Shown in pieces: positions 1-55,312 of a stretch of 64,000 bases of DNA. The notes beneath the pieces are model-generated. The model ran no database searches, was not told where the DNA came from, and was given only the letters and a program-made list of their open reading frames with translations. Position 1 is the first letter of the stretch. Each line of letters starts with the position of its first letter. The position numbers and the translations under genes are program-made. Origin of the DNA: Candidatus Saccharimonadota bacterium (GTDB taxonomy: Bacteria; Patescibacteriota; Saccharimonadia; Saccharimonadales; Saccharimonadaceae); contig JAFWGN010000002.1 of assembly GCA_017515285.1 (NCBI GenBank), positions 1-64,000 of the forward strand, read 5' to 3'.

Positions 1-450
1 AGAGGACCAAGTGCCGCTTACGGCAGAGATGTTTTGGGTGGTGTCGCCGGTTTTGGTGAGGGAGTTCGAGGTTCCGGCCATGGAGAGGAAGACGGAATAG
101 TAGTTGCCGGCGGAGAAGACGCCAATGGTTTTCTTGGCGACCTTCATGGTGCCGACGTTGCCGGCGTCGTTGGCGCCGGTCGGGACGATTTCTCCGAAGT
201 CAACGTCGCCGTGGCCGAGGTCGGAAGTGGAACCGTTGCCATAGTCCGGATCGAGAGTGAGAGAAAGGCTTTTCCAGGTTACGTCGGTGGTGGCGTCGGT
301 GGCGGAGACTTCGGAGATAAGGGCGGGGACGATTACAAATGCGGATATGAACAGGAAGAGAGATAGAACCGAACCGTAAAGACACCTTCGATGAGTTTTA
401 AATTTATGAACATAGGTCTCATCGTGAGGACAAATGATTTGCTTTGACAT
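1..450 (-). CDS. FISUMP-family surface protein, N-terminal part (runs off the window)
   Basis: The reverse strand is open from an ATG at 450 to the window edge, 150 codons. Residues about 20-47 are a hydrophobic export segment (LFLFISAFVIVPALISEVSA). Behind it comes the N-terminal domain shared with the genes at 46210-49599 and 50344-52446. All three have a VTW..(L/I)SLTLDP opening, a GD(V/I).F pattern and a K.GVxxxGNYY-like stretch. The paralogues end in FISUMP domains, so the missing part probably does too. A GAGAGG ribosome site lies about 11 nt before the ATG. Expression is from the structured leader at 515-705. Function is unknown; adhesion or surface display is an inference from the family. 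Confidence 0.75.
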   Translation of the reverse strand, partial: MSKQIICPHDETYVHKFKTHRRCLYGSVLSLFLFISAFVIVPALISEVSATDATTDVTWKSLSLTLDPDYGNGSTSDLGHGDVDFGEIVPTGANDAGNVGTMKVAKKTIGVFSAGNYYSVFLSMAGTSNSLTKTGDTTQNISAVSGTWSS

Positions 451-514
451 GGTTGGTTTTACCTCTCTTTCTGTTAGTATCCACCTCCCGAGGTTAACCG
501 TTTTATGCAAAAAT

Positions 515-705
515 GGCACCGCGAGGGTGCAATAGACTATCACCGTGCCTTAGGTTACGAACAGGTTATTACGTAATACACCAACACGAATGGTCTCCTT
601 CACGGCGCCATAAAGATTGGTGTAAAAATCTTCGACTTGTCCTCCTAATGTACGGTGGTTGTTTTTTGGTTATGAAACAACTAACACTGTGATAATCTAT
701 TGCAC
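515..705 (-). promoter_or_regulatory. Structured 5' leader RNA, copy 1 (long-range stem plus invariant 12-nt block)
   Basis: The arms at 689-705 and 527-543 are complementary over 17 bp with one G-U wobble. The 5' arm begins about 6 nt after the -10 box, so it is the predicted start of the transcript. A second hairpin (658-664 with 675-681) follows the 5' arm. The block CCTCGCGGTGCC (complement of 515-526) follows the 3' arm and precedes a U-run. A GGCAC segment (complement of 545-549) can pair with the GTGCC of that block. The same plan occurs at 49681-49938 and 52490-52654. This accounts for the gene-free stretch 451-795. I do not recognise it as a known riboswitch class. Confidence 0.65.
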
Positions 706-710
706 TTATA

Positions 711-739
711 AGTTTATCACAAGCGCAAACGGAATGCAA
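711..739 (-). promoter_or_regulatory. Promoter of the FISUMP gene at 1-450
   Basis: TTGCAT (-35, complement of 734-739) and TAAACT (-10, complement of 711-716) are separated by 17 bp. The motif ATAAGTGC directly after the -10 is also found in the two paralogous promoters. Confidence 0.65.
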
Positions 740-46209: not shown

Positions 46210-49200
46210 TTACTTTTTGGCGCAACGCAAGGAGAGTGCGTTTACGGGATTAAATGAACCGTAGTAATAATCATTTACGGAGAAATTATATTTTAATCCA
46301 TCACCGTTGACCGAACGGTAATTTGACCAATAATACCCTAGCGTCCCGTATTCTATACGGCCCAACGACGCCGACATATGACGTCCCGCGAGGGTAAAGC
46401 TTGCCGGAATTTGGCGAACTTCATAGGAAGAATAATATTCATTAAGATGAAGTGATGGTTGAGTCTGGTCTGCACTCGTAACTGGCAAGTTCCATCCATA
46501 GGGACATATTGAATCTGGAGCCGTTACACCTTTTGCGTCAGGCGCAACGCTTCCTGCAACACTCGCGTACCAGTTGTAATAATAATCCACGCCGTCGTCG
46601 TTTGTATATTTTGCGCTCTCTGATTCTTCTGGGTCCCAGGAGGATTTGGAGTTGAGGTCGGTGTTGGTGGAAGTGAGGTTGTAAGTGCCGGCGAAGTCGG
46701 CGAGATTGAGGGCGAGATTGTTCGTCATCCAGCAGTTGCCGTCTTTGAGCTTCGTGACGACGTAAGTCTTGTCGTCACGGGAGTCGGTGAGGGCGATTTG
46801 TTGATGTTCTGTCATCGTGGAGCAGGCGTTCCAGTTTTGCATGGTGCCGGAGGATTTAATCCACTTCGCGTAGAGCTGAAGGCCCGTCGAACTTAAGTCG
46901 CCGGTCGTGATAGTTTCGTTCGGACCGTAGGTCGTACCGAAGCCGTCGGCCTGGGTATTCCAGCCGGCGAAGCCGTAGCCGGAGCGGGCGAAGTTTGGAG
47001 CAGTCAAAATCGTGTCGGTATTGCTGCTAGCGCTTTGGTCGGACATTGAGCCAGAAGTGTTTCCATTTCCGTCGTAACAAATCTTCCCCGCTTCGCAGGT
47101 AGAAGCGACCGCTTCGCTTGAGGCATTGCTGCCTTGCCGAGCAACACAACGGGCGCTGAAGCCGAATTCCTTGTTATATGAATATAATTCCTTCTTATCA
47201 CCAATTAAATGTAGGACTGTAGACTTTTGATTTTCGTCTTGGGATGACATATAATACGAATCAATGCTTCGATTATTTATATTCCCTTCTACTGAGTAAT
47301 ACCCAGCTAAGTTTAGCGAAATTGGAGTCATTAAATATGGAAGATTATTAGAACTTTCACTATTATTTGATGTTAATCCATATATATCAAACAATAATTG
47401 CGAATATGACTTGTTGCCCGAAGTCGGTGGTAATGACCAGGCTTTTGCGCAGATACTATCAGTCACATCAGATTCATAATAGCCGGCGGATTCTGCTGTA
47501 GCAGCATAATAATTATAATAGTCGCCAAAATACTGAGGAGCGTGGGGAGCCATCCACTCTACGTCTTTGTAGTTGACATAGAGGTCTTCATGTGCTCTTG
47601 ATTGCAAATAAGGGTCATATTGGATTATAGAACCAGTATTTGGGTTAACCTGAGTGTAGGCAAAATTTATATTACTATAACTTCTCGGGTGTGCAGACAG
47701 CCCACTATACAAGATTTGATTCGAGGATGAGCATACGCCAGGAGATGTGCATTTTGTAGCCCATCGATATTCAGGGGCAGCATCGTAATTTCGTTGCAAG
47801 CCAGATTGAAACTGCGCTTCTTGTGCGGAACCATAATAGTTTTCAGCAAACTGCGCAAATGTCGTCCAGCCGTTTTCTGCCATAACGGTAGAAACAGATT
47901 CAGATGGATCCCAGTAATTTTTGGAGTTGAGGTCGGTATTAGCTGCCGTCAGCCTCTTTGTTCCAGCGAAGCTGGCAAGATCTAGGTCGAGATTTTGTAC
48001 CATCCAGCAATTCCCGTCGGCGAGGCGGCGGACGAGATAGGGTTTTTGGTCACGATTGTCAATGAGCTTGAAAGAGCCGGCTTTTTCCATGTTGGCACTT
48101 CCAGCGGCGACATACCAACCGGTCGTATCGACAGAGCCGTCGATGCCGGCAGAATGGAGAGCGGTACCAGTCCCCGTGTAGTCATAGAGAACCGCACTCT
48201 CGCCGAGGGCGTTGCCCCAAGCGTTGGTGTTTTTGCAGATACTGCCGGTCATTTGTTGCATTTCTGTAATCAAGTAGTCGGAGCCGTTCCGGGTCTTGCT
48301 TTGGAGGCCGGCATACATCGCGGAGGCAACTTCGTTATTTGAGGAGTCTTCGTAGCGGGAGATGTAATCATAGCCGTAATCCGCAATATGAATCCAAAAG
48401 TCATATTCGCCGTCCATGTTAGCGCCGCCGGCGGTCTTGCCGTCGGGGTTAGACGGAACGATGCAGTTTAGGGTTGTCTTGTTGCTCGAGACTACGAAGT
48501 CGGAAGCGGCGGAACCTATCATGCATTTATAGGTGTCGGTTGCGTAGGCGCTGAGACCGGTCGTGTTGTAGCCGGAGCTGGTTTTGTTGGCTTCGGTGAC
48601 AGAGTGCGGGACGAGATAAACGGAAACCTGAGACTTTTCGAGAGTCGGGACGGACATCGCAAGGTCGAAACTTAGGGTTTCCATGTCGCTTCCGGTGATA
48701 TATTGCAGGCTACGAGAGACGTTGTTCGAGACCGTGTCGAGGCTCGATGCGCTGGCGACGGCAGTGTAGATTATTGTGTTTTCATACTTGCCAGCAACGA
48801 GAGAAGTGTCGGCAAAGGCGGTATAATAAATGTCAAAATGATCCTTTGTCGTGTCGCCCGTAATAGCGTCGCCGGCGGAAGTGTAATGGCCGAAGCCGAG
48901 AGGGTTTGTCGTCGTGGCTTTATAAATCTGCTGGGCGCCCGTACTTTGGCTCGGGACGCCCGCCCAGAGACCGGAGTTGTAGACGCTGGCGTTGTTCGCA
49001 TAAGTTAGAGGTTGACCGAGGAGGGAGTCATAGTTCGCATAGGTCGCGACGGAAGAAAAAGGAGTCTCGAACGTAGTCGAAGTCGGAACGGCATAGCCCC
49101 AGCCTTTGCCAGAAAATGCGGTTGGAGCGGAAGCGTCCGTCCCAGTCCAGGTCGAAGTATGGGCGTTAATGGATGAGTTAGTGTCGCCGGTAAGGACGAG

Positions 49201-49599
49201 AGCGTTAGAGTTGCTTCCAGTCGAGAGATAAACGCTGTAATAAGTTCCGGGGGTAGAGATGCCGATGGTTTTCTTGATAACTTCCTGAGTCCCAATATTG
49301 TCGCCGTCGACGGAACTCGGAGCAACAAAGTTGAAAAGGACGTCGCCGTGGCCGGTCGCACCAATCTGATTATTACTTTCCGTGGGGTTCTCCGGGTCAT
49401 AATCTGGGTTCAGGGTTAGGGAGATTCCCGTCCAGTTGACGGCGGTTTTGACGTTTTCCGCGGCGTGAACCTCGGCGCGCATGGTCGGAATTAGAGCAAA
49501 CCCAAGTATAAAAACGATGAATGCCGTGAGGGATGCCCGTAGCGCTCGCGCGATAATCATTCGTTCCTTGAGATTTCCTAGGTTTTGTCGGATTTGCAT
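46210..49599 (-). CDS. Large FISUMP-domain surface protein with InlB-type repeat
   Basis: 1129 residues. An export segment lies at about 22-45 (LTAFIVFILGFALIPTMRAE). The family N-terminal domain (about 50-290) follows. Two FISUMP (Fib_succ_major type) domains are seen: one with VRRLADGNCWMVQNLDLDL at about 535 and one with VTKLKDGNCWMTNNLALNL near 960. A Listeria-Bacteroides (InlB) repeat, GYGFAGWNTQADGFGTTY...LQLYAKW, lies between them. Tyr, Ser and Asn are abundant. No LPXTG or C-terminal membrane segment is present, so anchoring would be by the N-terminus or by secretion. AAAGGAGG precedes the ATG behind leader copy 2. Adhesion is inferred. Confidence 0.85.
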   Translation of the reverse strand: MQIRQNLGNLKERMIIARALRASLTAFIVFILGFALIPTMRAEVHAAENVKTAVNWTGISLTLNPDYDPENPTESNNQIGATGHGDVLFNFVAPSSVDGDNIGTQEVIKKTIGISTPGTYYSVYLSTGSNSNALVLTGDTNSSINAHTSTWTGTDASAPTAFSGKGWGYAVPTSTTFETPFSSVATYANYDSLLGQPLTYANNASVYNSGLWAGVPSQSTGAQQIYKATTTNPLGFGHYTSAGDAITGDTTKDHFDIYYTAFADTSLVAGKYENTIIYTAVASASSLDTVSNNVSRSLQYITGSDMETLSFDLAMSVPTLEKSQVSVYLVPHSVTEANKTSSGYNTTGLSAYATDTYKCMIGSAASDFVVSSNKTTLNCIVPSNPDGKTAGGANMDGEYDFWIHIADYGYDYISRYEDSSNNEVASAMYAGLQSKTRNGSDYLITEMQQMTGSICKNTNAWGNALGESAVLYDYTGTGTALHSAGIDGSVDTTGWYVAAGSANMEKAGSFKLIDNRDQKPYLVRRLADGNCWMVQNLDLDLASFAGTKRLTAANTDLNSKNYWDPSESVSTVMAENGWTTFAQFAENYYGSAQEAQFQSGLQRNYDAAPEYRWATKCTSPGVCSSSNQILYSGLSAHPRSYSNINFAYTQVNPNTGSIIQYDPYLQSRAHEDLYVNYKDVEWMAPHAPQYFGDYYNYYAATAESAGYYESDVTDSICAKAWSLPPTSGNKSYSQLLFDIYGLTSNNSESSNNLPYLMTPISLNLAGYYSVEGNINNRSIDSYYMSSQDENQKSTVLHLIGDKKELYSYNKEFGFSARCVARQGSNASSEAVASTCEAGKICYDGNGNTSGSMSDQSASSNTDTILTAPNFARSGYGFAGWNTQADGFGTTYGPNETITTGDLSSTGLQLYAKWIKSSGTMQNWNACSTMTEHQQIALTDSRDDKTYVVTKLKDGNCWMTNNLALNLADFAGTYNLTSTNTDLNSKSSWDPEESESAKYTNDDGVDYYYNWYASVAGSVAPDAKGVTAPDSICPYGWNLPVTSADQTQPSLHLNEYYSSYEVRQIPASFTLAGRHMSASLGRIEYGTLGYYWSNYRSVNGDGLKYNFSVNDYYYGSFNPVNALSLRCAKK

Positions 49600-49680
49600 A
49601 GTCCTCCTTTAGGTTAATCGAACCTCCGTGATGCCGGCGAGACGAGATTATCTCCCGCTCGCAAATCCATATACAAAACA

Positions 49681-49938
49681 GGCACCGCGAGGTGCGAAAA
49701 CCAATAGAATCACGCTTCCCAAAATGGGTGGCGTTTCAGCTTCAGACGACTAACGAATGAACCCGAACTCTGTTGGTACCCTACACGGTGCCTATTCTTG
49801 GTTCCATTTTGTCGTTAATCGAACATAAAGCCGATGACGCCTAGTTGAACACTTTGGGAGCTAGACTTTAAGCTAGCAGATGTTACTGAACGTTTTGGTC
49901 TTTTTATACCAAAACTGTGATTATATTGGTTTTCGCAC
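49681..49938 (-). promoter_or_regulatory. Structured 5' leader RNA, copy 2 (22-bp long-range stem)
   Basis: The arms 49917-49938 and 49692-49713 are complementary at 21 of 22 positions and enclose about 200 nt. A hairpin (49892-49899 with 49908-49915) lies next to the 5' arm. CCTCGCGGTGCC, here at the complement of 49681-49692, follows the 3' arm and leads into a U-rich run. GGCACCG (complement of 49786-49792) can pair with CGGTGCC of the block. It fills most of the gene-free stretch 49600-50023. Confidence 0.7.
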
Positions 49939-49943
49939 TTATT

Positions 49944-49972
49944 ATTTTAGCGCGAGCTTTAGCGTAATTCAA
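49944..49972 (-). promoter_or_regulatory. Promoter of the FISUMP gene at 46210-49599
   Basis: TTGAAT (complement of 49967-49972), 17 bp, TAAAAT (complement of 49944-49949). The spacer is nearly identical to that at 52660-52688. Confidence 0.75.
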
Positions 49973-50343: not shown

Positions 50344-52446
50344 TTATTTTTTAACACAGCGTGTATACGCTCGCGATGCGCGGTTGTAGCCGTAGTCATC
50401 TCTGACGTATATAACGCTGTCCGTATAAAGTAAAAAGAACGTATTCCGATCTCGGTCGTAGGGCGCCGGAAGATTGGTGTTGTATGGGGTGCTAAAATTA
50501 TACTGGCTATAATGAACTATGTTAAGCGGAAACCGCGAGACGGCAAGAATACTATCGAGAGATTGTGTTAGCGAATAGCTGTTTAGTAGTTTAGCCCAAG
50601 ATTTATCCGTGCTTGAGCCGACTCTCGGCAACTGCCAGCCGGACGGGCAAATTGAGTCCGGGGCAGTGGCCGGACTGAGCATGGTGCTTGTTCCGCTTCC
50701 CGCTGTTACGGCGTACCAGTCGTATACCCACGATGGCGCATATAGATTCGTGTTATACTCATATCCTGGGGACGGCTGACTGCCAGTGTTAGCTCCGGGA
50801 TTCCAGGAGGTTTTGCTGTTGAGGTCGGTGTTCTCGGGGGTGAGGTTGTGAGTGCCGGCGAAGTCGGCGAGGTTGAGGGCGAGGTTTGAGGTCATCCAAC
50901 AGTTGCCGTCCTTCAATTTGGCGACGGAATAGGTGTTATTGTCACGGGAGTCGGTCAGAGCAATAACATCGTGAGTTGACATGGCGGAACACTGGGCGGT
51001 AGTGAAGCTTTGCATGGTGCCGGAGGAAGCGAGCCAGTGGGCGTAGAGTTGGAGACCCTCGGTCGAGAGGTCGCCGGTAGCGATAGTTTCGTTCGGACCA
51101 TAGAGACTGCCAGAAGTATCGTCGGCGGTCGTAGACCAACCAGTAAAGGCGTAACCGGAACGAATGAAGGAGGGGGTGTTTAGCATGGCGTTTGAGTTTG
51201 AGGAGGCGGTTTTATCGGACATGGTTCCTGAGTCGGCGCCGTTCCCGGCGTAGCAGATTTTGCTAGCGGAACAGGCGAAGACGAAGGAAGCGATGTCGTT
51301 ATTACTGTCGCGATAATGGCTGAGGTAGTTTAAGGTTTCTTTCGCGGGAGTGGCGACTTGGACCCAGAAGTCATATTCGCCAAGAGTGGCGACTGTATTG
51401 TTACCACTAGCGTCGGTTGAGCCAGTGGAGCCGAGGCTCGGGAGGGCGCAGAGAATAGTGACGCTTTGACCGGAGGAAGCAACCGAAGTAACGGAGCAGG
51501 TCGGGAAGTCGGTCTTGGTGAGATTGTCAATCGAGTAGCTGTTCGCAATTATTGTTGCGTGAGGGACAAGATAAACTTCGACGTCGCTAGCTGCAATCGA
51601 GTTGTTGCTTGAGGCAAGGTCGAGAAGGAGAGTTTCCGTACTTCCGGCGGTGGCGGAGGCGTTGTCGCGGGCGATGTTGAAGCTAGTCGTGTCGAGGCTG
51701 GCAGTTGAAGCGAGAGCGGTATAAACGACTTTATTCTCGTAGACTCCACTTAAAGCGTCAGTATCGACCATGATGGAATAATAAATATCGAAAGTGTCGC
51801 CAGAGGAGAAGCCGGCCGCGGCGTTGGTTGAGTTATAATAAATTCGCTCGATATTTGCGGAGGTTTTTACAGGAGACCAGGAACCGGTATTATAGACGGC
51901 AGCACCAACACCGGTCTTGGTTAAGTTATTGGCGGTAACGTCGGTGGCGCTTGCAAGATAAGAATCATAGGCCGAAAGAGTGACGGAAGTTTCTGTGGTT
52001 GGAACGGCATAGCCCCAAGAAGTTGAGGCAAAGCCGGTCGTGACCGAGGTGGAAATTGCGGGGATGGTTTGGGTGGCGACGGCGGAGGTCTTGAGGGTGT
52101 TATCGTCGGTTGGGGTTGAGAGATAGACAGCATAATAGTTCCCCTCCGTCGTCACTTCGACCTGTTTCTTGACAACTTTTTGAGTGCCATAATTACCAAT
52201 AGACGTATCACGGACGGAAGGAATAACTTCGCCAAAATCGATGTCACCATGAGGGTCAAGAGTTAAGGAAATGGTGCTCCAAGTTACGCCAGCGGAGACG
52301 GTTTCCGCGGCGTAGGTTTTGGCGACGAGGCACGGAATAGTCAAAAATCCAAAAATAAAAAGCGCTAGGGCGAGAATCGAGCCGCCTAGCATCCGGTTCA
52401 GAAATTTCCTTTCTTTAATTCCCCCTAACGTATCTTTGGCCAGCAT
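50344..52446 (-). CDS. FISUMP-domain surface protein with InlB-type repeat
   Basis: 700 residues. An export segment (about 20-45, LALALFIFGFLTIPCLVAKT) is followed by the family N-terminal domain, with VTWSTISLTLDP and GNYYAVYLST. An InlB-type repeat (GYAFTGWSTTADD...LQLYAHW, about 435-485) and one FISUMP domain (VAKLKDGNCWMTSNLALNL, about 515-700) follow. It is a shorter paralogue of 46210-49599, with one FISUMP copy instead of two. AAAAGGAGGG precedes the ATG behind leader copy 3. Confidence 0.85.
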   Translation of the reverse strand: MLAKDTLGGIKERKFLNRMLGGSILALALFIFGFLTIPCLVAKTYAAETVSAGVTWSTISLTLDPHGDIDFGEVIPSVRDTSIGNYGTQKVVKKQVEVTTEGNYYAVYLSTPTDDNTLKTSAVATQTIPAISTSVTTGFASTSWGYAVPTTETSVTLSAYDSYLASATDVTANNLTKTGVGAAVYNTGSWSPVKTSANIERIYYNSTNAAAGFSSGDTFDIYYSIMVDTDALSGVYENKVVYTALASTASLDTTSFNIARDNASATAGSTETLLLDLASSNNSIAASDVEVYLVPHATIIANSYSIDNLTKTDFPTCSVTSVASSGQSVTILCALPSLGSTGSTDASGNNTVATLGEYDFWVQVATPAKETLNYLSHYRDSNNDIASFVFACSASKICYAGNGADSGTMSDKTASSNSNAMLNTPSFIRSGYAFTGWSTTADDTSGSLYGPNETIATGDLSTEGLQLYAHWLASSGTMQSFTTAQCSAMSTHDVIALTDSRDNNTYSVAKLKDGNCWMTSNLALNLADFAGTHNLTPENTDLNSKTSWNPGANTGSQPSPGYEYNTNLYAPSWVYDWYAVTAGSGTSTMLSPATAPDSICPSGWQLPRVGSSTDKSWAKLLNSYSLTQSLDSILAVSRFPLNIVHYSQYNFSTPYNTNLPAPYDRDRNTFFLLYTDSVIYVRDDYGYNRASRAYTRCVKK

Positions 52447-52489
52447 AGCCCTCCTTTTAGTTTAACTGCCTCGAGGCGCATATAAAAAC

Positions 52490-52654
52490 GGCACCGCGAG
52501 GATTTGCAAAGAACCAACAGTGCTTCACCGCATACGCGATTACAGCGCTACTGGCCCTCGTCGGTACCGTTTTTCTGCACTTTAATCGCGAACTAATATG
52601 TATAAATAATATGTGCGGTTTTATATAAAATAAAACACTGTTGATTCTTTGCAC
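52490..52654 (-). promoter_or_regulatory. Structured 5' leader RNA, copy 3 (18-bp long-range stem)
   Basis: The arms 52636-52653 and 52505-52522 pair over 18 bp with one G-U wobble. A hairpin (52618-52624 with 52630-52636) adjoins the 5' arm. CCTCGCGGTGCC (complement of 52490-52501) is followed by GTTTTT. CGGTACCG (52562-52569) can pair with the CGGTGCCG of the block through one G-U pair, where copy 2 has a Watson-Crick pair. It occupies the gene-free stretch 52447-52794. Confidence 0.7.
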
Positions 52655-52659
52655 TTATA

Positions 52660-52688
52660 ATTTTAGCACGAGCTTTAGCGTGATTCAA
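52660..52688 (-). promoter_or_regulatory. Promoter of the FISUMP gene at 50344-52446
   Basis: TTGAAT (complement of 52683-52688), 17 bp, TAAAAT (complement of 52660-52665), with a CGCTAAAGCTCG core in the spacer that is also found at 49944-49972. Confidence 0.75.
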
Positions 52689-53305: not shown

Positions 53306-55312
53306 TCAAGGTTTCTTGGGGTGGAGAGTGGAAGAAATTGTCGCGATTTGGTCGCGGAGGAGGGCGGCGCGTTCGAATTCGAGGTTGGCGGCGGCGAGTT
53401 GCATTTCCGCGGTTAGCTGCTTGAGGAGTGAAGGGAGTTCTTCTTTTGGAATCTTCTTGATGTTGAACTCGGACTTTGTTTCTTTTTCCGGGATGATGGC
53501 GCGGAGACCGGCGGAGATTTCCTTTTTGATTCCCTTCGGGGTGATGCCGTGTTCTTTGTTGTATTTTTGTTGAAGTTCGCGACGGCGGGCGGTCTCGGAA
53601 ATCGCTTTTTCCATGCTTTCGGTGATGAAGTCGGCATACATGATTACTTTTCCTTCGACGTGGCGGGCGGCGCGGCCGATGGTTTGGATTAAAGCGGACT
53701 CGGAGCGAAGGAAACCTTCCTTGTCGGCGTCGAGAATGGCGACAAGGGAGACTTCGGGAAGGTCGAGGCCTTCGCGGAGGAGGTTAATTCCGACGAGCAC
53801 GTCGTAAACCCCGGTACGAAGGTCGCGTAAGATGTCGCCGCGCTCCAAAGTGTCGATGTCGGAGTGAACGTAGGCGGTCTTTATCCCGCGCTCCTTCAAA
53901 TGGTCGGTTAAATCTTCGGCCATGCGCTTCGTCAAAGTTGTCACGAGGGTGCGTTGGTTTTTAGCGATGCGGCGGTCAATTTCTTCCATCAAATTGTCGA
54001 CTTGTCCTTCACTCGGTCTTACTTCGATTTCCGGGTCGAGGAGACCGGTCGGACGGATGAGTTGCTCCGCGGGCTTCGGACAGTTCGCGAGCTCGTACTC
54101 GCCCGGGGTGGCGGAGACGTAAACTGCGTGGGAAATGTGTCGGTAAAACTCGGCGAAGGTGAGGGGGCGGTTGTCCAGAGCGGACGGCAAACGGAAGCCA
54201 TAGTCCACGAGGCTCAACTTCCGGGCGTGGTCGCCGTTAAACATTCCGCGGACTTGGGGGAGGGTCATGTGCGACTCATCAACGAGAAGGAGAAAATCTT
54301 TCGGGAAAAAGTCAAGAAGGGTCGAGGGCGGTTCGCCGGCTTTTCTACCCTCGAGGTGGCGGGAATAGTTTTCGATACCCTTGACGAAGCCAGTGCTTTC
54401 TAGCATTTCTAAATCGTATTTGATTCTTTGAGTGAGACGCTGGGCCTCCAGGTATTTTTGGTGTTTCTCGAAGAAGGCGAGGCGGCCTTTGTATTCTTTT
54501 TCGATTGAGACGAGGGCGCGCTTCAAATCAGATTCGGGGGTGGCGTAGTGGGTGTTAGGGAAGATGTGGATGTGGTCCGGCTTTTCGCGGACGTCGGCGG
54601 TGAGGGGGTCGATAATCTTGACACTTTCGAGGTTATCAAAACCGAACTCAAAACGATATGCCCATTCGCCGGAGGCTGGGAATAAATCCACCGTGTCGCC
54701 CATGACGCGGAAGTTGCCGCGCTCGAAGGCGAGGTCGTTTCGGTGGTATTGCATGCTGACTAGGGCGCGGATGAAACTTAGTTGGTCGGGGACGCGGGCG
54801 TCTCCGGTGGTAACCCAACCGGTCGGTTTTTGCCAGAGGGGGAAGGACATTTCCTTATAGTTTGCGGGAGAGCCGATGCCGTAAATACAGGAGACGGAAG
54901 CAACGATAATGACGTCGTCGCGGGTGAGGAGCGCTTCGGTCGCACCGTGGCGCAGGCGGTCGATTTCGTCGTTGATGGCGGAGTCTTTTTCGATGTAGGT
55001 GTCCGTCGAAGCAATATAGGCCTCTGGCTGATAGTAATCGAAATAACTCACGAAATAGTGGACTTCGTTTTTGGGGAAAAATTCGCGGAACTCGGAATAA
55101 AGTTGGGCGGCGAGGGTTTTGTTGTGCGCGAGCACTAAGGTTGGTTTCCCGTAGTTTTGAATGATGTTTGCCATCGTGAAGGTTTTGCCACTCCCGGTTA
55201 CGCCGAGAAGGCATTGTTCTTTGATTCCCTCTTTTAAGCCCTTGGTGAGCTGTTTAATGGCGGCGGGCTGGTCGCCGGTCGGGGCGTATTTTGAGACGAG
55301 TTCGAATTTCAT
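53306..55312 (-). CDS. uvrB: UvrABC excinuclease subunit B
   Basis: 668 residues, the family length. Walker A is GVTGSGKTF; the damage-binding beta-hairpin ([14 protein letters not shown]), DESHMTLPQ and QTIGRAARH are present, and a C-terminal UVR motif ([20 protein letters not shown]) binds UvrC. It verifies damage in nucleotide excision repair. TATAAT lies 8 nt before the ATG in the same local context as the gene starting at 37643. Confidence 0.97.

Follow-up and report, generated by a model that had tools for sequence, protein, structure and literature searches.

Among the described systems closest to the leader analyzed here are the transcription-attenuating riboswitches with pseudoknotted aptamers, which share with it a position in the 5' leader, a conserved multi-helix fold and a pseudoknot strand that also takes part in a terminator-like hairpin followed by a U-run. 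Unlike such riboswitches, the leader has no known ligand and no Rfam match, its fold is closed by the first bases of the transcript, and it occurs in many copies per genome ahead of surface-protein genes; for want of a ligand it is at most a candidate for the riboswitches proper. The T-box (RF00230) is comparable, on paper, in its choice between terminator and antiterminator, and the plus-strand letters GGCACCGCGAGG recall the T-box GGNACCGCG. However, that likeness falls on the wrong strand, the RF00230 covariance model gave no match to the leader at gathering or permissive threshold, and the downstream genes are neither amino-acid nor tRNA genes. The put RNA of phage HK022 and EAR of Bacillus are structured processive antitermination RNAs that start long or surface-related transcripts. 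They resemble the leader as structured RNAs at a transcript start, whereas the leader is matched by no Rfam family and has a U-run of its own at its end, together with an alternative hairpin.

The window analyzed here (the whole stretch of 64,000 nucleotides of contig JAFWGN010000002.1, from a Candidatus Saccharimonadota bacterium) contains the block CCTCGCGGTGCC exactly three times, always on the minus strand (515-526, 49681-49692 and 52490-52501), where 0.48 matches with up to one mismatch would be expected by chance; GGCACCGCGAGG is the same block read as plus-strand letters. A sequence-only reading of this DNA had described the block as identical in three leaders and followed by T-rich DNA, and both observations stand, since NTTTTT or NNTTTT lies directly 3' of each window copy. 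The whole 850-kb genome holds six exact copies, against none for the backwards control pattern, and 15 sites are obtained when the block plus U-run is sought with three mismatches permitted. A chance repeat is ruled out as the source of the block by these exact counts and by the covariation described below. It supplies the 3' pairing strand, T3', in a structured and conserved leader on mRNAs of the Saccharibacteria, which are tiny parasitic bacteria.

Along the RNA, the 5' strand of a helix that we call P1 is followed by T5', the P1 3' strand, T3' and the U-run, so ordered that P1 encloses smaller hairpins and T5' (e.g. AAAAUGGCAUCGUGAGG), while T5' pairs with the T3' block and then on into the U-run. 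The P1 5' strand starts a few bases past the -10 box, and the P1 3' strand ends directly at the T3' block. The promoter scan found a sigma-70-like promoter in copies 2 and 3 (-35 TTGAAT, 17 bp, -10 TAAAAT), and copy 1 has a promoter-like TTGCAT / TAAACT with identical spacing. The features of the three copies, all on the minus strand, are as follows.

52683..52688, minus strand: copy 3 -35 box TTGAAT (promoter scan; conserved distance to P1 across the family)
52660..52665, minus strand: copy 3 -10 box TAAAAT (promoter scan)
52636..52654, minus strand: copy 3 P1 5' strand GTGCAAAGAATCAACAGTG, at the predicted transcript 5' end (sequence; P1 covariation in relatives)
52556..52574, minus strand: copy 3 T5' with A-run AAAAACGGTACCGACGAGG, containing the segment 52562-52569 of the sequence-only reading (sequence; T helix covariation)
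52505..52522, minus strand: copy 3 P1 3' strand CACTGTTGGTTCTTTGCA (sequence)
52490..52501, minus strand: copy 3 T3' block CCTCGCGGTGCC (pattern search and covariance model alignment)
52484..52488, minus strand: copy 3 U-run (sequence)
50344..52446, minus strand: copy 3 downstream surface-protein gene, 700 aa, hydrophobic N-terminus, List_Bact_rpt and FISUMP similarity
49967..49972, minus strand: copy 2 -35 box TTGAAT (promoter scan)
49944..49949, minus strand: copy 2 -10 box TAAAAT (promoter scan)
49917..49938, minus strand: copy 2 P1 5' strand GTGCGAAAACCAATATAATCAC (sequence)
49780..49792, minus strand: copy 2 T5' GGCACCGTGTAGG (sequence)
49692..49713, minus strand: copy 2 P1 3' strand GTGATTCTATTGGTTTTCGCAC (sequence)
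49681..49692, minus strand: copy 2 T3' block (pattern search)
49682..49695, minus strand: copy 2 local terminator-like hairpin GCACC-TCGC-GGTGC (terminator scan; -7.9 kcal/mol)
49675..49678, minus strand: copy 2 U-run (sequence)
46210..49599, minus strand: copy 2 downstream surface-protein gene, 1129 aa
734..739, minus strand: copy 1 -35-like TTGCAT (read from the sequence)
711..716, minus strand: copy 1 -10-like TAAACT (read from the sequence)
689..705, minus strand: copy 1 P1 5' strand GTGCAATAGATTATCAC (sequence and covariance model alignment)
597..609, minus strand: copy 1 T5' GGCGCCGTGAAGG (aligned by covariance model R1)
527..543, minus strand: copy 1 P1 3' strand GTGATAGTCTATTGCAC (sequence and covariance model alignment)
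515..526, minus strand: copy 1 T3' block (pattern search)
516..530, minus strand: copy 1 local terminator-like hairpin GCACC-CTCGC-GGTGC (sequence)
509..513, minus strand: copy 1 U-run (sequence and covariance model alignment)
1..450, minus strand: copy 1 downstream surface-protein gene, continuing beyond the window edge

Family-wide, the -10 box lies at a near-constant distance 5' of P1, and exact TATAAT is present in 33 of 47 leaders from the window's genus and in 30 of 48 divergent leaders, where shuffles lead one to expect about 2. From this near-constant distance it follows that the first bases of the RNA are paired, the start site being predicted from the -10 box.

A segment complementary to the block had been proposed between the stem arms of each leader. 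It is present in copy 2 (GGCACCGTGTAGG, minus strand 49792-49780) and in copy 3 (GGTACCGACGAGG, minus strand 52568-52556, with the G-U pair that had been named there), but the copy 1 partner placed at 545-549 (GGCAC) was wrong, the true one being GGCGCCGTGAAGG (minus strand 609-597), which the covariance model aligned independently. The pairing itself is real and yet longer than claimed, as the 12-bp T helix is extended via one covarying base into the A-run:U-run, giving about 18 bp in total. The sequence-only reading had also suggested that the pairing of arms A and B and that of GGCACCG with CGGTGCC either form a pseudoknot or compete. Covariation sustains the pseudoknot; P1 and T meet at the border at most, so that both can be present together, as a pseudoknot, instead of competing.

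The pseudoknot pairing T5':T3' is strongly supported by covariation in 47 genus-type and 48 divergent leaders. In the alignment of the 47 genus-type leaders (A2), all taken from genomes other than the window's own, P1 was paired in 95.7% and T in 93.3% of cells (94.4% together), compared with about 42% in the slid controls, and 262 cells carried double changes against a shuffled mean of 66.7. The covariation score was reached by none of 500 shuffles, a count that does not equal a probability because shuffles ignore relatedness; the slid control, which preserves relatedness, also fails. T3' is near-invariant, and variation in T5' mostly leads to G-U pairs or tracks changes in T3', while the pair at columns 93:167 occurs as A-U (20), G-C (14) and U-A (6). 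In the 48 divergent leaders, on an alignment fitted to P1, P1 was 99.0% and the whole structure 95.1% paired, and a plain MAFFT alignment gave the same covariation outcome, the result being alike in two sets of divergent leaders. Additionally, each window leader has a much stronger fold than its shuffles (z -4.6 to -7.5), and T5' probably lies in a hairpin loop, where it was placed in 29/47 genus-set leaders, against 27% for random segments. RNAalifold on A2 returned the T helix alone, since it cannot show pseudoknots. The leader thus has the conserved secondary structure with compensatory changes by which a structured cis-regulatory leader RNA is recognized. A coding leader peptide was set aside, as the stems vary freely and retain pairing only, and the matches to block plus U-run in Rhodoferax, Aeromonas and two viral contigs are look-alikes, namely ordinary GGGCACC-TCGC-GGTGCCC terminators lacking P1 and T5'.

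Two further conserved stretches were observed. Genus-type leaders carry a U-rich UUUUUAU (A2 columns 40-48) within the loop region of one of the small inner hairpins, which could bind a protein or pair with the A-run beside T5'. The divergent leaders carry a conserved UUGUGAAUGG segment 5' of the P1 3' strand (A4 columns), apparently a part of P1 with an internal mismatch and a candidate recognition site.

The second partner of T3' is formed by the last bases of the P1 3' strand, giving (G)RCACC-N4-6-GGUGY and then the U-run. This local GCACC/GGTGC pairing, pointed out earlier for copies 1 and 2, does exist in both and is missing in copy 3 (0.0 kcal/mol). With 5-6 bp and about -7 to -8 kcal/mol the hairpin is a short one, and by itself it shows weak covariation. 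The outer pair of its core is retained in 80/85 leaders (G-C 55, A-U 21, G-U 4; A.C in 5), and in the divergent type CACC is conserved though the T5' pairing with its last two bases has been lost. One U of T3' forms a G-U wobble with T5' in 35/47 leaders and a local A-U pair in 40/47. Between L216 and L217/L220, T5', the local arm and T3' are altered in concert, as expected if one T3' base has to pair with both partners; this counts as one event. A third partner, T5'', was found in four genomes, downstream and before the ribosome-binding site, with 27/34 above the 99th shuffle percentile; the same search in the window's own genome placed 0/14 above that percentile. T5'' (e.g. GGUACCGUUAGGGGG) is complementary to T3' and its U-run and lies between the U-run and the ribosome-binding site, its carriers being L115 (1-1711), L118, L120-L124, L106-L109 and other leaders of genomes G188, G288, G277 and G232. 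The real competition is over T3', for which T5' (pseudoknot) and the last bases of arm B (local hairpin) are possible partners, joined in some relatives by T5''.

Since T3' is needed both for the T5':T3' pseudoknot and for the local hairpin, so that one of the two folds rules out the other, a transcription attenuator is the most likely function, and we lean, with a little more belief than doubt, towards one in which the pseudoknot means read-through and the local hairpin means stop. As in known attenuators, an intrinsic-terminator-shaped hairpin with its U-run precedes the gene, except in copy 3, and an alternative conserved pairing excludes that hairpin. The location of the leaders on the gene strand, the T helix reaching into the U-run and the copies found by the model also speak for an attenuator. 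Transcription would begin at the P1 5' strand, as predicted from the -10 box, and P1, the inner hairpins and the T5':T3' helix would then build the pseudoknot just before and into the U-run. Alternatively, T3' would turn back onto the last part of P1, giving a compact hairpin which, with the U-run, has the shape of an intrinsic terminator and may be used as one. With the pseudoknot present, the terminator would be blocked and RNA polymerase would proceed into the gene; if the pseudoknot failed, transcription would halt at the U-run. We infer that some signal sets the balance between termination by the local hairpin and read-through by the pseudoknot, the candidates being a ligand, a protein, an RNA or polymerase speed. 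The T duplex averages -22 to -27 by simple energies, far stronger than the local hairpin, so that a switch would need a kinetic or assisted basis. The attenuator reading also fails to account for the downstream T5'' of some relatives.

The sign of this switch could be reversed, with T as the terminator. The same parts would then act in the opposite sense, the T5':T3' helix and U-run being the terminator itself, prevented from forming by P1 folding, by a factor or, in some genomes, by the downstream T5'', with the local hairpin incidental. We consider this distinctly less probable, while giving it more weight than the other alternatives. In its favour, T is a long, GC-rich helix, extended by the A-run:U-run and immediately followed by the U-run; in copy 3 the T helix looks perfect and there is no local hairpin; and T5'' is able to take T3' away in four genomes. 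However, the loop would span about 45-100 nt and contain the P1 3' strand, an uncommon arrangement among intrinsic terminators; the CACC of the local hairpin stays conserved in the divergent type, although T has no need of it there; and T5'' is transcribed after the U-run, too late for an ordinary antiterminator. A switchable terminator, as the earlier reading had proposed, is still the best mechanism for the element, with termination a candidate activity.

The position of the leaders relative to genes bears on a further alternative. Behind the three window leaders, on the minus strand, lie genes for paralogous proteins whose N-termini are hydrophobic; the two complete proteins show similarity to the Listeria-Bacteroides repeat, and one has weak FISUMP similarity. 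Within the genus to which the window belongs, almost every leader whose gene can be read stands ahead of a protein that has a strongly hydrophobic stretch at its N-terminus (for example 11/12 leaders in the window's genome and 10/10 in G188). As expected of leader RNAs, they lie 5' of same-strand genes, usually within 100 nt, in many genomes. The divergent type precedes varied accessory genes, including a Tsp45I-type restriction enzyme, DNA methylases, DUF4352 and small membrane proteins. L190, L053 and L182 are divergent leaders ahead of restriction-modification genes (Tsp45I-type endonuclease, DNA methylases), from which it follows that the RNA is not tied to surface proteins class-wide. Adjoining the copy 3 unit, the translation of a minus-strand open reading frame (window 53306-55312) resembles UvrB by eye.

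A promoter at the 5' end and a U-run at the 3' end would also suit an element whose main product is a separate small RNA, started at its own promoter and ended by its own terminator, with the gene expressed by leak or from a start of its own. This is unlikely, as a same-strand gene with a ribosome-binding site follows the checked leaders and the copies multiply along with the surface-protein gene family, a link of which an independent RNA gene has no need. We give an equally slim chance to an RNA acting on RNA polymerase or on mRNA fate without any terminator choice, either by processive antitermination in the manner of put and EAR or as an mRNA-stabilizing 5' structure. The paired 5' terminal bases, the fold at the start of long genes and the folding of all three window leaders far better than shuffles would agree with it, but the conserved U-run, the T pairing into it and the competing hairpin are left unexplained. 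Finally, the inverted repeats, about 17-22 bp long and close to the promoters of paralogous genes for surface proteins, might recall the recombination sites of an invertible DNA segment in phase variation, which we regard as scarcely credible because the arms differ between copies instead of being the near-identical repeats of invertons and covary with G-U pairs, which are pairs in RNA only, the promoter lies outside the repeats, and the interlocked T pairing and U-run would be unexplained.

The covariance model R1, built without the window's genome, finds about 20 leaders in that genome (best E 3e-16), and pattern counts reach 32 in G188 and 34 in G288. Several copies in G188, G232, G277 and G281 lie within about 150 nt of contig ends; the leader-gene units look like assembly-breaking repeats, and copy numbers may be underestimated. 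The named matches are Candidatus Saccharibacteria from the gut of goat, sheep and roe deer. In the first family scan, L007 and L009-L013 were dropped as lying outside such leaders and L008 was retained. R2, the covariance model of the divergent type, has members in 70/294 genomes and in at least 33/122 genera of the order. A phylum-wide sample of 332 genomes gave 12 with matches, all of the same class and one outside the order; the leader was not found outside the class in this sample, a provisional limit given partial sampling and strict filters above 40 genomes. No Rfam 15 family matches the leader at gathering or permissive threshold, the apparent matches to microRNA and other families being far below cut-off, and a search of open-licence papers gave no relevant report of Saccharibacteria leader or noncoding RNAs. 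The leader is an RNA family of Saccharibacteria supported by covariation and absent from every library searched here.

According to one paper (PMC11665869), nothing at all is known of how Saccharibacteria and their relatives control the switch between the host-attached and the free state, and riboswitches have been put forward as tools for use in them. The presence of one leader class before many surface-protein genes per genome would give shared control of the set. It is a doubtful extension that a lineage-specific class of RNA switch controls the repertoire of surface proteins in Saccharibacteria as a single regulon, for instance between host-attached and swarmer cells; as the paralogs of one genome have T3' in common, a terminated leader might also base-pair in trans with the T5' or T5'' of another paralog, which would make their expression interdependent. 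The leader would count as a new RNA family, one missing from Rfam 15. Its architecture is uncommon, with a fold closed by the very 5' end of the transcript and an internal segment paired to the U-run-bearing strand, and it offers clear compensatory pairs for mutation. It represents a native, lineage-wide candidate for a cis-regulatory RNA joined to surface proteins that may serve an epibiont in dealing with its host.
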